This document shows, piece by piece, positions 20,468 through 28,705 of a stretch of DNA of 34,267 nt. Source of the stretch: Bacteriovorax sp. BSW11_IV (GTDB lineage: Bacteria; Bdellovibrionota; Bacteriovoracia; Bacteriovoracales; Bacteriovoracaceae); contig NZ_AUNE01000014.1 of NCBI RefSeq assembly GCF_000447755.1, positions 1-34,267 of the forward strand. Reading direction: 5' to 3'. The notes under the pieces are model-generated. The model was not told where the DNA came from and did not search any database. It saw only the letters and a list, made by a program, of their open reading frames with translations. The position numbers were made by a program, and so were the translations under genes. Numbering within the stretch: the first letter of the stretch is position 1; the number at the start of each line of letters is the position of its first letter.

Positions 20468-20513
20468 ACAAATGTTAAGAAAAGCGTCCGACTGTTTACC
20501 AAAGGAGACAGAT

Positions 20514-21623
20514 TTGAAGAATATAATTATTAATTCATTGATTTTATTAGGATTAGTATCAAGTTCGTTTGCATCTTCAACAAGTGAAGAGGCCTTAAAA
20601 ACAAGTATAAAGGGATATAGCGATCATGTTTACGGTCAATATGTCGAAAGTTTAGACAGAGCGAAAGTTCTACGCGATAGCTTAAAATTATTTACTGATG
20701 CCCCAAGTGTAATGACTCAAGAAATGGCCAAAAAGGCCTGGATTAGTGCCCGTGAAGTTTATGGTCAAACTGAAGTATTTAGGTTTTACGGCGGACCAAT
20801 TGACAATGATGAAGGTCCAGAGGGTCTTTTAAATGCATGGCCTCTAGATGAAGCCTATATTGATTACGTTGAAGGTGCACCAAACGCTGGAATTATCAAT
20901 AATGTTTCAGATTTTCCGGAAATTACAAAAGAACTATTAACTTCATTAAATGAGCTTGATGGTGAAAAAAATGTTTCAACAGGCTACCACGCAATTGAAT
21001 TTCTTCTATGGGGCCAAGATATGTACGCTGATGGTGCTGGAAGAAGAAGCTATGAAGACTATATCGAGGCCTATGCTCCAAATGCAAAAAGAAGATCACA
21101 GTATTTGAATATTGCCGCCGATCTTCTTGTTGAGCATCTCTCTTCTCTTGTTGAGCAGTGGAGTGATAATAAAAATAATTACAGAACAACGTTTGAATCA
21201 GATAACAAAAAAGAAACTCTTAAAAAAATTCTGTCTGGCCTTATCTTCATGGCCGGTGATGAACTTTCTGGTGAGAGAATGTATGTTGCCTATGAAACTA
21301 TGGGACAAGAGGATGAGCACTCATGCTTCTCTGACATGACTCATATGGATATCATTTGGAATTACCTTGGGCTTGAGAATGTAATTACGGCCACAGGTGT
21401 TCTTGAACTTCCAGAATTAAAAGGAAGTGCACTTGTTTCACAAGTTAAAGAAAGAATGGCCACAGTAAATAAACTACTTCATTCAATTCCTGCTCCTTTT
21501 GATCAAGCTATTTTAAGTGAAGAGGGAAGAGCAATTATTCTTTCTTCTGTTGAGGAGCTTGAGCTCCTGGCAGCAGAGCTAGTAAAGGTTTCAGAAGTAC
21601 TTGGTGCAAAAGTAGATTTCTAA
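20514..21623 (+). CDS. Imelysin family protein (M75 / EfeO-like), exported
   Basis: The protein has 369 residues when started at the TTG at 20514. That TTG has a perfect AAAGGAG 6 nt upstream and opens a clean signal peptide (KNIIINSLILLGLVSSSFAS), whereas the ATG 42 nt earlier has neither. The imelysin signature GYHAIEFLLWGQD gives GxHxxE with His159 and Glu162. Two helical repeats make up the fold. Family members bind iron at the cell surface or in the periplasm and were once annotated as M75 peptidases. It is translated just upstream of a di-haem oxidoreductase (10 nt gap), the usual partner in iron-related operons. Confidence 0.88.
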   Translation: MKNIIINSLILLGLVSSSFASSTSEEALKTSIKGYSDHVYGQYVESLDRAKVLRDSLKLFTDAPSVMTQEMAKKAWISAREVYGQTEVFRFYGGPIDNDEGPEGLLNAWPLDEAYIDYVEGAPNAGIINNVSDFPEITKELLTSLNELDGEKNVSTGYHAIEFLLWGQDMYADGAGRRSYEDYIEAYAPNAKRRSQYLNIAADLLVEHLSSLVEQWSDNKNNYRTTFESDNKKETLKKILSGLIFMAGDELSGERMYVAYETMGQEDEHSCFSDMTHMDIIWNYLGLENVITATGVLELPELKGSALVSQVKERMATVNKLLHSIPAPFDQAILSEEGRAIILSSVEELELLAAELVKVSEVLGAKVDF

Positions 21624-21633
21624 GGAAATTAAA

Positions 21634-23022
21634 ATGACTAAATCATTCATTCTAGGTTCACTTCTTCTAACGACTTTAAACGTGAGCGCAGGAGATATTC
21701 CTGCGCTTTCTCATTTAGAAGAATTCCCAGGTGGAAGTGGAACAACATCTGATCTATCTGTGCAGGCCTTTAGTCATCCTCTAAGTGGCACGCGTGGAAA
21801 AGATCGTCGTGAGTTTGTTGTTGGAAATAGTTTTTTTCAATCTGTCTGGGTTATGAGTCCTGCATCGACTCTTTTAAGAGATGGTCTTGGTCCTCAGTAT
21901 AATGCTGTATCCTGTTCGGCATGTCACTTCAAAGATGGAAGAGGAAGAGGGCTTCCTGATTCAGATGGACTCGTTGATATCTCTCTACTTTTTAGATTGA
22001 GAGTGAAAAATGCCGATGGCTCTGTTTCTGAACATCCTCATTATGGTGGACAATTTCAACCACAAGGCATTGATGGTGTACAAGGTGAAGGGCAAGTGTA
22101 TGTGAACTTTGAAGATATCAAAGGTCAGTATGCCGATGGGTCTTCCTATACTTTGAAAAAACCTAATTATACGTTTATGCAACTTCACTATGGAAAACTT
22201 GGAGATGATGTCATTGCATCACCTCGAGTTGGGCCACAGATGATTGGTCTTGGTCTGATTGAATCGATTAGAGCTGAAGATATATTAATGAAAGTTGATG
22301 AAGATGATAGGGATGGTGACGGAATTTCTGGCCGTGCCAATTGGGTTCACTCAGTTGTTGAAAATAAAAAAGTTCTTGGTCGTTTTGGATGGAAGGCCGG
22401 AAAGCCAAGTCTATTAGAACAAAACGCTGCTGCTTTTAATGGAGATATTGGAATTACAAGTCCACTTTTTCCAAATGAAGAATGCACGATCGTTCAAAGA
22501 GACTGCCAAAATAATATGACAAGTGATGATATCTCAATGGAGCTTCTTGAAAAAGTGACTTCGTACACACAGCTTTTGTCCGTGCCTAAAAGAAGACATT
22601 TTAATTCATCGGCCGTCGTGGCAGGAAGAAAAGTTTTTCATCAAATTAGTTGTCAAAGTTGTCATACTCCAAGTTATAAAACTTCGAGCGATGCTCCTTT
22701 CGATGTTTTGCGCGATCAAATGATTTATCCATACTCTGACTTTCTTCTCCATGATATGGGTGATCTTCTTGCTGATGATAAAGGTCAGTATAAGAATGAA
22801 GAAGAGGCCATGGCACGAGAATGGAGAACTCCTCCTCTATGGGGAATCGGCATGATTGAAACAGTAAACGGTCATACTCGCTTACTTCATGATGGCCGTG
22901 CTCGCTCAATAGAAGAGGCGATCTTATGGCACGATGGAGAAGCAAAGGGATCGAAAGATAAGTTTCTAAAGTTGAGTAAGGTTGATAGAGAAAATTTAAT
23001 CGAATTTCTCAAAAGTCTATAA
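21634..23022 (+). CDS. Di-haem oxidoreductase (DUF1111 / 'thiol oxidoreductase' family)
   Basis: A 462-residue exported c-type cytochrome: signal peptide ending NVSAGD, haem motif CSACH at 94-98 and a second, CQSCH, at 340-344. The body carries the family blocks SPRVGPQMIGLGLIE, DGDGISGRANW, FGWKAGKPSL and WRTPPLWGIG, which are also seen in di-haem peroxidase relatives. It acts in the periplasm as an electron-transfer or peroxidase-like enzyme; its true substrate is unknown. The SD is AAGGAA. It is co-transcribed with the imelysin gene, which suggests joint work on iron or haem. Confidence 0.9.
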   Translation: MTKSFILGSLLLTTLNVSAGDIPALSHLEEFPGGSGTTSDLSVQAFSHPLSGTRGKDRREFVVGNSFFQSVWVMSPASTLLRDGLGPQYNAVSCSACHFKDGRGRGLPDSDGLVDISLLFRLRVKNADGSVSEHPHYGGQFQPQGIDGVQGEGQVYVNFEDIKGQYADGSSYTLKKPNYTFMQLHYGKLGDDVIASPRVGPQMIGLGLIESIRAEDILMKVDEDDRDGDGISGRANWVHSVVENKKVLGRFGWKAGKPSLLEQNAAAFNGDIGITSPLFPNEECTIVQRDCQNNMTSDDISMELLEKVTSYTQLLSVPKRRHFNSSAVVAGRKVFHQISCQSCHTPSYKTSSDAPFDVLRDQMIYPYSDFLLHDMGDLLADDKGQYKNEEEAMAREWRTPPLWGIGMIETVNGHTRLLHDGRARSIEEAILWHDGEAKGSKDKFLKLSKVDRENLIEFLKSL

Positions 23023-24930: not shown

Positions 24931-25054
24931 TTTGTCGTGGTGTCATCTTGATTCCAAATTTGAAGAAAATCTAACTAATTCCCACATTGATTGTAATCAC
25001 AAAGTTTAATTGCTATTTCTAGATTTAGAGAGAACATTCGAAAAGGAGAAGGGA

Positions 25055-25639
25055 ATGAAGACTTTAATCACAATCGCGCTCGGGTTATCGATTGGAACAA
25101 GTGTATTTGCTGCTAATGTTGATAGAGTAGTTAGAAGAGCTAACAACGTTGTAACACTTCTAGAAAGAAGAGCAGATGATTTGTCTCAAAGAGAAGTTGA
25201 TTTGATTGCTCAAAAGTTGGAAGAAATAACTCAAATTATTTCAGGAAGAACTCCGAACCCTACACCTAGACCTCCGACTTACGGCCAAGTTATTCATCAA
25301 GCTGAATGTTGGATTGATGATGATCCTGACTTTGACTTCGGTCAACGCTCTGCTGGAGTTGTTAAAGGAACAATTATGCAAATTGTTTCAGAATGTGAAT
25401 TTAGAGGACACTCAACTTATCCAAATGGATCTGCTGGGTTAAAAGATCTTGCCGCAATTGATGATACGACTGGATACGACAAATATGAATGTCATGTTGA
25501 TGACGATCTTGATTTCGATTTTGGTCAAGATGTTATTGGTAATATTTATGGAAATAGTTCTAGAGATGCTACTGAGGCCTGTGCAGCTATTGCGCGTATG
25601 ATGTATGGTGATAAAGGTTCTTCAGGAATTAGATATTAG
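25055..25639 (+). CDS. Exported protein with duplicated acidic DDD-x-DFDFGQ motif
   Basis: The protein has 194 residues from the ATG at 25055 (AAGGAG just upstream; an earlier TTG frame lacks one). A signal peptide ends near SVFAAN. Residues 20-70 form a charged helix, followed by a proline-rich linker (PNPTPRPPTYGQ). Two matching blocks, C-W-I-DDDPDFDFGQ and C-H-V-DDDLDFDFGQ, lie about 65 residues apart, each with a following Cys (SECEF and EACAA). The acidic blocks resemble calcium-binding loops, but this is only a suggestion. No named family. Confidence 0.7.
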   Translation: MKTLITIALGLSIGTSVFAANVDRVVRRANNVVTLLERRADDLSQREVDLIAQKLEEITQIISGRTPNPTPRPPTYGQVIHQAECWIDDDPDFDFGQRSAGVVKGTIMQIVSECEFRGHSTYPNGSAGLKDLAAIDDTTGYDKYECHVDDDLDFDFGQDVIGNIYGNSSRDATEACAAIARMMYGDKGSSGIRY

Positions 25640-25644
25640 ATAAT

Positions 25645-25678
25645 AAAAAGGCCAGTATTGAACTGGCCTTTTTTATTT
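25645..25678. terminator. Bidirectional terminator
   Basis: AAAAGGCCAGT (25646-25656) pairs perfectly with ACTGGCCTTTT (25662-25672), flanked by A and T runs. It lies between convergent stops at 25639 and 25678. Confidence 0.92.
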
Positions 25679-26601
25679 TAGAAAAAATTAAAAGATACTT
25701 TTTTGAAACAAGTCGTGATGGAATGACCTTTGATATAGCTCTTGGCCTTTAACCAATAAATTCTTGCTTGAGATTTTTCTAAACTTAAGTACTCCACAGT
25801 TTTTCTTACAAAATTTTCTCTCCAAGCTGTTCTTGTTTGCCCTTCTTTAAACTCTGGCATTTCCATATTGGGAAGATCAAATTGCACTCTATAATCTTGC
25901 CAATCTTTTTCATAAAGAACTTCGTTAAAGGCCCTTTGTTCAGGAGAGTCTTTATACCATTCGTTTTTCTTAATAACGTCGGCAACAGCAACTGGCAGTG
26001 GCCCTAGAGGGTAGTTGCCTTTAGCAATTTCTTTTCTAATAAAGCTAGAAGAAGTTCCATCTTCCATACCTTTTGGTGTCATGATGAGAATATTATCTCT
26101 TTGAGGAAAATCAACTTCACCTAATTCAGGTCTTGGCATGATAATCCACTTTCTAACAGTATCGTCTTTTGCTGATTGCGGAAGTAATTCCCAACCATCA
26201 CCACCAGTAACTCCATAAAGAAGTTTACCGATCTTTTTTTGAATTCTAAATTTCAGAGGCTCTTTTCCATCAACTGGCTCAAGAACAAATTCAACGCTCT
26301 TCATTTGCTCTTCTGTAAGAAGATCCGAAAGACCTGCTTTCATCATGGCAAGTCTTTCATCCATTGAGGCCATATAGTTTTTAGGTCCACGCGTATTGAG
26401 AACGACATAAACTTTGGCAAAATCATATTCAGTAATCAAAGAAACAACAGTTGCAAGGTGAGAACGAGTCGGGGGATCAAAACTTCCTGGATAAAAGGCG
26501 GCCTTGTCCGCTTCTTCGCTGTAGGGTGTATTTAAATTACTCCACTCAGCAAAAACTGGGGCACAAAGTGACAGTAAAACCGAGAGAATTAAAATTCTCA
26601 T
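25678..26601 (-). CDS. Nucleotidylyltransferase (NadD/CoaD-like) with an N-terminal signal peptide
   Basis: A 307-residue protein. Residues 1-18 are a typical cleavable signal peptide (ending APVFA-EW). Directly after it the nucleotidylyltransferase fold starts with FYPGSFDPPTRSH, where Thr45 and His48 take the place of the usual (T/H)xGH. The second signature, GTSSSFIRKEI near residue 188, corresponds to the (I)SSTxIR block of NadD enzymes. About 80 extra residues follow. These enzymes need cytosolic ATP or NTP, so export is odd; the protein may bind nucleotides without catalysis or work outside the cell. The AAGGAG SD supports this start. Confidence 0.8.
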   Translation of the reverse strand: MRILILSVLLSLCAPVFAEWSNLNTPYSEEADKAAFYPGSFDPPTRSHLATVVSLITEYDFAKVYVVLNTRGPKNYMASMDERLAMMKAGLSDLLTEEQMKSVEFVLEPVDGKEPLKFRIQKKIGKLLYGVTGGDGWELLPQSAKDDTVRKWIIMPRPELGEVDFPQRDNILIMTPKGMEDGTSSSFIRKEIAKGNYPLGPLPVAVADVIKKNEWYKDSPEQRAFNEVLYEKDWQDYRVQFDLPNMEMPEFKEGQTRTAWRENFVRKTVEYLSLEKSQARIYWLKAKSYIKGHSITTCFKKVSFNFF

Positions 26602-26744: not shown

Positions 26745-26820
26745 ATAAGTTTTATTAGACTTATTTAAAGTACAATTAAATGAAGTTTTTTTGTCACAAA
26801 CGGATTTTGTTCGCCACAAA
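26745..26820 (+). promoter_or_regulatory. Operator-like elements upstream of the bufferin operon
   Basis: ATAAGT/ACTTAT (26745-26750, 26759-26764) form a dyad. TTTGTCACAAA (26790-26800) is an exact palindrome with one central base. CACAAA recurs at 26795 and 26815, exactly 20 bp apart. A -10-like TACAAT lies at 26771-26776 without a good -35. The region 26602-26846 has nothing else that I can name. Confidence 0.35.
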
Positions 26821-26846
26821 GGTTTAACATTAACTTGGAGGATTCT

Positions 26847-27131
26847 ATGAACGATCACAAAAAACTATTATTGGCCGCAGCGACTGTAGGATTAATGGGG
26901 GCTGCCCCAATGACGATGGCCGCTGAAAAAGGTTCGGAAAAGGTTATGTGCTACGGTGTAAATGGTTGCAAAGGACAAGGTGTTTGCCACGGTAAAGTGG
27001 ATGCTTGTAGCGGGAAAGAAGGTTGTCAGGCCAGCGTTTCTTGTAAAGGATCAAACAGCTGTAAAGGGAAAGGCTTTGTAAAACTTTCTAAAAAAGAATG
27101 TACTGATAAGGGTGGAAAGGTTGGAATGTAA
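26847..27131 (+). CDS. bufA2: BufA2-like bufferin precursor peptide (Cys-rich, exported)
   Basis: A 94-residue precursor. GGAGG sits before the ATG. A signal peptide (LLLAAATVGLMGAAPMTMAA) is followed by a core with eight cysteines, most in C-x-G steps: MCYGVNGCKGQGVCHG, DACSGKEGC, VSCKGSNSCKGKGF, and a final KECTDKGG. This is the BufA2-type bufferin pattern, and the next two genes are its MNIO enzyme and partner. In known bufferins the enzyme converts Cys in the core to thiooxazole-type rings that chelate copper. The identity of the metal here is not shown. Confidence 0.85.
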   Translation: MNDHKKLLLAAATVGLMGAAPMTMAAEKGSEKVMCYGVNGCKGQGVCHGKVDACSGKEGCQASVSCKGSNSCKGKGFVKLSKKECTDKGGKVGM

Positions 27132-27948
27132 TCAATCTTATCCGATTGGGGTGGGGCTTCGCCACACCCATTTTCCCGAATTGGAAGAAAGTTTTTCGAA
27201 AGGGGAAAAGATTGGAGTAAATTTTTTCGAAGCTCTTTCTGAAAACTATCTTTCAACTCGTGGCCGTCCTTTCTCAATGTTGATGAAAGTGAGAGAGCAT
27301 TATCCCATTGCTCTTCACGGTGTCTCAATGTCTATTGCAAGTGAAGAAGAGATAGACTTTGATTATCTTAAAAAATTGAAAGAGCTTTATCGCTTAATTG
27401 AACCAGTGATTACTTCGGATCATATGTGCTTTACAGGTATGGCCCATAGTAATCTTCATAATCTCCTACCATTCGCCTATACAGAAGAGAATTTAGAACG
27501 AATTGGCGAGCGAGTTCGTATTGTTCAGGACTTTCTTGAGAGACAAATGATTTTTGAAAACTTGTCCGCTTACTTTTCTCTTAAGTCATCTACTATGAGT
27601 GAAGCGCAGTTTTTAACACGTCTTTGCGATAATACAGGAGCGGGACTTTTACTTGACGTGAATAATATTTATGTCAATTCATTCAATCAAAAATTTAATG
27701 CTGAGACCTATTTAGAACAAACCAATTTTTCTCATGTCAAACAAATGCATTTGGCCGGTTATTCTGATATGACAACGCATTTATTTGATACTCATTCAAG
27801 AGAAGTTCAACCTCCGGTGTGGGAGCTTTTTTCAAAGGCCATCGCAAAAACAAAAGTTCCAGTTCTTGTAGAGTGGGACGAAGAAATTCCACAGCTTGCT
27901 AAAGTCGTTGAACAGGCACAATTAAGTTATAAATTTGAAGGAAGATAA
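27112..27948 (+). CDS. bufB: MNIO / DUF692 family multinuclear iron oxidase (BufB)
   Basis: A 278-residue TIM-barrel enzyme of the DUF692 (HvfB/BufB/MbnB/TglH) group, which installs oxidised rings on Cys residues of RiPP precursors. Likely metal ligands lie in GVGLRHTHF, FEALSENY, IALHGVSM, SDHMCF, FENLSAYF, LLDVNNIYVN, QMHLAGYS and LVEWDEE. The frame begins inside the end of bufA2: the GTG at 27112 overlaps it, and a TTG at 27121 is also possible, so translation is coupled. The next gene, the DUF2063 partner, starts 1 nt after its stop. Together they define the modification pair of a bufferin pathway. Confidence 0.9.
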   Translation: MERLECNQSYPIGVGLRHTHFPELEESFSKGEKIGVNFFEALSENYLSTRGRPFSMLMKVREHYPIALHGVSMSIASEEEIDFDYLKKLKELYRLIEPVITSDHMCFTGMAHSNLHNLLPFAYTEENLERIGERVRIVQDFLERQMIFENLSAYFSLKSSTMSEAQFLTRLCDNTGAGLLLDVNNIYVNSFNQKFNAETYLEQTNFSHVKQMHLAGYSDMTTHLFDTHSREVQPPVWELFSKAIAKTKVPVLVEWDEEIPQLAKVVEQAQLSYKFEGR

Positions 27949-27949
27949 G

Positions 27950-28705
27950 ATGAAGCAATCTGATTTTGTGGCCTCAGTTTTAAAAGGGGAATTTGTTCGA
28001 TCTGATATGAGTGAACAAATGATTCCAATTGGCGATCTTACGGCCCAAGATGTCCTTGATATTTACTACAGTGATTATAGTGCGCGTATGAAAGAGGCCA
28101 TTGGTGAATTTTATGAAACGGTATGGTTTCTTCTTGGAGATGAAGACTTTTTTTCTCTATGTGAAGAGTATATTGATAAGAATCCATCACAGCTTCGCGA
28201 CTTAAATCAGTATGGTGATGAATTCCCGGCGTTTCTCAAAGCACATGAGCTTTCAATTGATATTCCTTACCTTTTTGAAGTTGCAGAATTTGAAAAGAAT
28301 TTTTGGAAGCTTTTTCATGCTGATGTTGAAGTTTCGGAGCAAGTTTTTCCACAGAATTTAGAAAATGCTCAATGTCGTTTTTCAAATGGTCTTGTGTTGC
28401 TTTCTTTTGATTATAATATTTTGGCATTATGGGATTTAAGAAAAGGCAATATCTCTGAAGAACAGTGGGAGCATGATGTTGATATCAATATCTCTCAGTA
28501 TATTGTTCTTCGCCGTGAAAAAGATCAAGTCTTCATTCATAGTATTTCTAAAGCTGAACACTCGCTTCTTGTAGAATTGCAAAAAGGAATAAGTGTTGGA
28601 GAGGCCCTGAGCTCAGTCGATATTACCAGTGAAGGTGTTTCAAACGTTTTTGCTTTTATTGCAGGACCTCTTAAAGAACATATTAGCTTTGAAAGTAAAT
28701 CTTAA
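27950..28705 (+). CDS. bufC: BufC / DUF2063 family partner of the MNIO enzyme
   Basis: The protein has 251 residues from the ATG at 27950 with GAAGGA upstream (an earlier in-frame TTG overlaps bufB). The N-terminal part (SDFVASVLKGEF, LDIYYSDYSARMKEAIGEFYETVWFLLGDE) matches the DUF2063 helical domain of HvfC/BufC proteins, which deliver the precursor to the MNIO enzyme. The C-terminal half is a mixed alpha/beta region (FSNGLVLLSFDYNI) as in this family. It directly follows bufB; no DoxX-type HvfD/BufD gene follows. Its end overlaps the convergent MAPEG gene by 23 nt. Confidence 0.85.
   Translation: MKQSDFVASVLKGEFVRSDMSEQMIPIGDLTAQDVLDIYYSDYSARMKEAIGEFYETVWFLLGDEDFFSLCEEYIDKNPSQLRDLNQYGDEFPAFLKAHELSIDIPYLFEVAEFEKNFWKLFHADVEVSEQVFPQNLENAQCRFSNGLVLLSFDYNILALWDLRKGNISEEQWEHDVDINISQYIVLRREKDQVFIHSISKAEHSLLVELQKGISVGEALSSVDITSEGVSNVFAFIAGPLKEHISFESKS

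Follow-up and report, generated by a model that had tools for sequence, protein, structure and literature searches.

A probable bufferin-2 operon encoding an enlarged, eight-cysteine precursor in Bacteriovorax sp. BSW11_IV

The closest described systems to the locus studied here are the bufferin-2 (Buf2) operons, bufA2-bufB2-bufC2, whose precursors have been described with six Cys residues (90%) or with twelve (PMC12452194). DoxX is counted as a core gene of bufferin clusters, and in the published survey of Antoine et al. sigma factor and NrsF genes were reported in Buf1, not Buf2, clusters (PMC12452194). The Buf1 peptide has its central Cys modified and its two outermost Cys joined by a disulfide; for Buf2 itself, characterisation of the modification is still preliminary (PMC12452194). 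In Caulobacter, the copper-induced and SigF-controlled cluster CCNA_02999-03001 lacks DoxX and encodes a protein resembling a precursor, a DUF692 enzyme and a protein with a DNA-binding domain (DUF2063) (PMC8224329, PMC3511200), and the SigF consensus is GTAACC-N16-CGAA (PMC3511200). The residue after the proposed catalytic base is Asp in Cys-Lys enzymes such as BufB2 and Phe in the Lys-Cys enzymes, with FonB as the example (PMC13097082).

The DNA analysed here (the window) is an entire contig of 34,267 bp from the 3.65 Mb genome of Bacteriovorax sp. BSW11_IV. An initial annotation of its sequence had described a compact three-gene MNIO RiPP operon, and this was borne out, as the BufA2, PF05114 and DUF2063 models all match the genes concerned, which are laid out as follows:

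26792-26817, forward strand: candidate promoter of the ECF type, TGTCACA-N16-CAC, its first base 55 nt ahead of bufA
26835-26846, forward strand: ribosome-binding site GGAGG upstream of the bufA ATG, read from the sequence
26847-27131, forward strand: bufA (bufA2), 94-aa precursor with a Sec signal peptide at about residues 1-25 and an eight-Cys core (NF050166)
26999-27043, forward strand: extra two-Cys module in the bufA core, position approximate, from alignments and from the BufA2 model match, which splits there
27112-27948, forward strand: bufB, MNIO maturase, its start overlapping the end of bufA (PF05114, 298 bits)
27950-28705, forward strand: bufC, DUF2063 partner protein of PME type 1 (PF09836, and aligned with the BufC of relatives)

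The gene order, precursor-MNIO-DUF2063, matches that of Buf2. The annotation had also seen a complete A-B-C set with bufB overlapping bufA and a DUF2063 partner, which is what we find, the overlap being up to 20 nt (bufB starts at GTG 27112 or at TTG 27121 and the bufA stop codon ends at 27131). By similarity to BufB, this is the single MNIO gene in the genome. Downstream of bufC lie a MAPEG gene on the opposite strand, a Bcr/CflA-type MFS gene and a histidine kinase gene, and no copper genes were found adjoining the operon. In a genome of the same genus (G001) the MFS neighbour is present without bufABC; the other flank is unmatched and little synteny is left. Elsewhere in the window, an imelysin (M75) gene and the di-haem oxidoreductase (DHOR) gene that comes after it, at 20472-23022, resemble an iron-uptake pair, the exported product of 25010-25639 repeats a segment of the ECxxDDDxDFDFGQ type, and the cytidylyltransferase-like product of 25678-26601 seems to carry a signal peptide and is unmatched in seven relatives.

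The likeness of BufA to BufA2 and its count of eight Cys (C35, C41, C47, C54, C60, C66, C72 and C85), both given in the initial annotation, were confirmed, the match to the NCBIfam model NF050166 being 68.8 bits against a cut-off of 60. There was no Pfam match to BufA, including to PF10048, the four-Cys DUF2282 precursor of Buf1, and no EGKCG repeats were found in it. NF050166 matches BufA twice, over model positions 4-60 and 36-78, and the overlap between the two matches is a sign of an internal partial repeat. All six canonical BufA2 Cys align and are kept, with two extra inserted to give eight, so that the Cys spacing is 5,5,6,5,[5,5],12 compared to 5,5,6,5,12 in six-Cys BufA2; the insert is exactly 12 residues with two Cys (C-x5-C-x5) and is missing from the six-Cys proteins. 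The C-x-G steps reported earlier are present at most of the Cys but not at C60 (CQA) or C85 (CTD), and the inserted C60 lacks a following x-Gly in 11 of 11 aligned eight-Cys sequences. Judged by eye, the signal is of the Sec type (MNDHKKLLLAAATVGLMGAAPMTMA-A) without a lipobox Cys, and 9 of the 12 eight-Cys precursors, the window's BufA not among them, have the look of lipoproteins. Between relatives, NG86 dN/dS for the BufA core was 0.04-0.23 in pairs with computable dS (many pairs being saturated); bufA is under purifying selection, and the large excess of synonymous over non-synonymous change indicates a real gene. The core of an AlphaFold model of BufA had a pLDDT of 46-48, too uncertain for placing the Cys.

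BufB matches PF05114 at 298 bits (cut-off 25) and falls slightly under the cut-off of 310 for the NF050167 MNIO_BufB equivalog (302.2 bits), and BufC matches PF09836 (DUF2063) at 54.4 bits (cut-off 27.2). The BufB profile matches the structures 3BWW (6e-56), TglH and MbnB, and in alignment with these the conserved His and acidic metal-site motifs are kept, with HG(69), SDH(102-104), EN(149-150), D182, H213, DTH(226-228), E254 and D256 aligning with 3BWW; for BufC a sequence profile gave no solved-structure match. D256, aligned to Asp249 of FonB, is the proposed catalytic base, and the next residue, E257, is acidic, suggesting that BufB fits the Buf2 side. Relatives of BufB were found using an alignment as the query, as a contig scan with the lone BufB sequence matched none, and no phage relative was found.

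Eight Cys of the window type were found in 12 genes from 11 genomes, all in the window's GTDB family (129 family and 369 phylum genomes were searched), the gene of one genome, G045, having an altered spacing of 5,5,6,5,6,5,12. These homologues scored 115-141 bits with their own profile and all other matches 67.6 bits or less, although, as 11 of the 12 genes went into that profile, their high scores are to some extent built in; those lower-scoring matches whose loci were read and show the core motif have six Cys. The window-type spacing occurred in none of 80 named loci of many phyla, although these include other modular expansions, for instance the ten Cys of Methylotenera and the long repeats of some Planctomycetota and Acidobacteriota loci. 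A quick ML tree places BufB with the other eight-Cys BufBs within a Bdellovibrionota grade; a 21-row set containing all eight eight-Cys rows had an SH-aLRT of 96, and the eight-Cys label requires four changes on this tree, which is compatible with one origin or with several. Eight-Cys BufA2 of the window type is apparently an undescribed, conserved version of Buf2, limited to this bacterial family in the loci read, and formed by the entry of one two-Cys module into a six-Cys core. By implication, a Buf2 core may be extended by a single two-Cys module as well as by duplication of whole domains.

Precursors of other forms were also seen. The one in Methylotenera (L123) has expanded in parallel, its core holding ten Cys in repeated Cx5Cx6 modules. 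At L051:5356-5691 there is a further BufA2 with eight Cys, in which two Cys belong to a distinct extension at the N-terminus and the MNIO gene precedes the precursor gene instead of following it. BufA2 precursors without an adjoining MNIO gene occur at L173, L174, L176 and L178 (genus g14, with conserved flanks) and at L172 and L167, and at L070 a 941-residue open frame upstream of bufB, which may be spurious, has about 74 periodic Cys (6,5,6,9/11).

The initial annotation had remarked on the lack of an obvious ECF sigma or anti-sigma gene near the operon, but this absence is ordinary, since the survey places sigma/NrsF genes in Buf1 and not Buf2 clusters (PMC12452194). There was no NrsF match anywhere in the window genome, and of its two distantly similar ECF sigma matches one has an internal stop. 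Upstream of four eight-Cys bufA genes in three genomes, starting 71-80 nt before the ATG, is GTAACA-N16-CGAA, one change from the Caulobacter SigF consensus, for which shuffled upstream regions gave a mean count of 0.0005. All three genomes (G005, G012 and G114) carry an ECF sigma gene close to bufA, and the partner gene of the sigma scored above the NrsF cut-off in G114 (43.7), just under it in G012 (24.3 vs 26.8) and, in G005, matched nothing in Pfam. The broader pattern TGT[AC]ACA-N16-C[AG][AC] precedes 8 of 12 eight-Cys genes, the window's included, and 0 of 9 six-Cys genes (shuffle mean 0.0075), this pattern having been composed after inspecting those same upstream sequences. The window's CAC variant matched at 23 places in the genome against 7 for a reversed control and is not specific genome-wide. 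Because of this post hoc origin and the abundance of the CAC variant, the window site is treated as a candidate, and the operon is possibly transcribed from an ECF-type promoter.

Among other Bdellovibrionota, ECF sigma genes lie beside bufA2 at L052:4091-5249, L053:6528-7645, L166:3650-4827, L039:1860-3065 and L040:5516-6735, with NrsF beside them passing the Pfam cut-off in L166, L039 and L040 and narrowly missing it in L052, and several sigma-carrying loci have SigF-like promoter sites ahead of bufA or of YceI/sigma genes. ECF sigma/NrsF genes do therefore adjoin Buf2 operons in this phylum, though the survey reports them for Buf1 only. A Novosphingobium plasmid shows a sigma-DUF1109-BufA2-like-DUF692 arrangement. 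YceI-family periplasmic genes also adjoin bufA2 (L040:4726-5370, L044:5681-6271, L053:5558-6154, L042:4336-4944 and L141:6821-7438), Pfam-confirmed in four loci and recognised by look in others.

That no DoxX gene lies nearby, as first described, proved correct: the MAPEG, MFS and histidine kinase genes stand just outside the operon instead, and a genome search located two DoxX genes, one each on contigs C10 and C25, and bufferin genes surround neither of them. DoxX was beside bufA2 in 0 of 21 BufA2-carrying genomes of the lineage and phylum, the window genome included, although some of their contigs are short and an edge could hide a neighbour; the nearest DoxX to bufA2 on one contig was about 190 kb off. 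A home-made DoxX profile, which may miss members, matched within the fetched flanks of only 7 of 108 bufB-bearing loci. The idea that DoxX is a hidden partner of the operon was rejected, as the window genome's DoxX genes are unlinked and none of the 21 genomes has one beside bufA2. The further suggestion that the missing DoxX is notable, and marks a distinct, divergent pathway, could appeal to its listing as a core bufferin gene (PMC12452194), but it is very improbable when all 21 genomes lack DoxX beside bufA2, the annotated plasmid Buf2-type loci of Pseudomonas and Thiothrix are three-gene units, and the copper-induced Caulobacter cluster CCNA_02999-03001 also has three genes (PMC8224329). 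The absence is thus ordinary, and we have adjusted our expectation in that Buf2 can do without an adjoining DoxX.

Taken with these comparisons, the operon most likely encodes a bufferin-2 RiPP in which the enzyme pair would turn inner Cys into thiooxazoles and the peptide would buffer copper in the periplasm, the chemistry being read across from Buf1 and related captophorins. BufC would present the BufA precursor to, or recruit it for, BufB, a predicted multinuclear non-haem iron oxidase, which would oxidise inner Cys, probably to 5-thiooxazole with a loss of four H per Cys; the Sec signal would then take the modified peptide to the periplasm, where it may bind excess copper. A similar peptide could instead serve another soft metal, or sulfur or oxidative stress, and related operons do respond to Cr, Cd, Au and Ag (PMC3511200, PMC8224329), MerC-Buf fusions exist (PMC12452194) and bufA2 in Bdellovibrionota often follows a YceI gene rather than a copper gene. 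We consider this improbable, as Caulobacter without sigF is impaired in growth on Cu, which is not the case on Cr or Cd (PMC8224329), and two plasmid homologues adjoin copper or heavy-metal genes (a heavy-metal P-type ATPase with a MerR regulator in one case, a copper multicopper oxidase in the other).

Within the bufferin-2 reading, the unusual number of rings raised in the initial annotation is possible. The two-Cys module gained by the precursor might add as many as two rings, and by analogy up to six of the eight Cys in the window's BufA, or just the three Cys-Lys sites (C41, C66 and C72), could be modified. In the latter case most other Cys would stay as thiols or disulfides in a thiol-rich peptide, which would accord with the naming of the precursor group as Cys-Lys, with the proposal that the acidic residue of its enzymes contacts the substrate Lys (PMC13097082) and with the invariable lack of x-Gly after C60 of the inserted module; neighbouring CxG sites, however, are conserved to an equal degree. 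We give this smaller number of rings rather less than an even chance, as a sub-hypothesis of the bufferin-2 reading whose likelihood is not to be added to it. G006 and G045 each carry one six-Cys plus one eight-Cys gene, and such peptides, sometimes in one genome, make a natural pair for studying the choice of Cys by MNIO enzymes and ring number against copper capacity. More tentatively still, and on balance unlikely, the eight-Cys operons may form a distinct bufferin subclass in which the module insertion was co-inherited with its own MNIO branch, giving more thiooxazole rings (six at most if the outer two Cys pair up as they do in Buf1), more metal capacity and control by a SigF-like ECF promoter; were this so, SigF-type control of bufferins would extend to Bdellovibrionota.

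Amongst known systems, methanobactin (MbnABC) shares with the window operon an enzyme of the MNIO superfamily, but differs in its partner protein, in an MbnA without a signal peptide, in its oxazolone-thioamide chemistry and in its role in copper uptake. The fontiphorin and oxazolin (EGKCG) captophorins share an MNIO with a PME1 partner and a Cys-rich precursor with repeated motifs and, in most, a Sec signal, but the window's BufA lacks their repeats and its BufB has Glu after the catalytic Asp where Lys-Cys enzymes have Phe. The Caulobacter SigF regulon clusters CCNA_03363-03366 and CCNA_02999-03001 have the same precursor-MNIO-DUF2063 arrangement, the latter sharing the lack of DoxX and the former differing in its DUF2282 precursor and DoxX; the precursor of CCNA_02999-03001 is annotated as DUF2282 in one paper and may not be Buf2-type, and the BufA2 model had no match in 14 control genomes including Caulobacter vibrioides. 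The Caulobacter SigF promoter resembles the sites ahead of eight-Cys bufA genes, but the window genome has no NrsF match and its own site reads TGTCACA-N16-CAC. The nearest likeness is to Buf2 itself, in the A-B-C order, the Sec-exported Cys-rich precursor with CxGxNxCKG units and the six canonical Cys, and the MNIO and DUF2063 pair, from which the window operon differs in a precursor of eight Cys rather than six or twelve, in the two-Cys insert of 12 aa, and in belonging to a version confined to one Bdellovibrionota family in the set searched.
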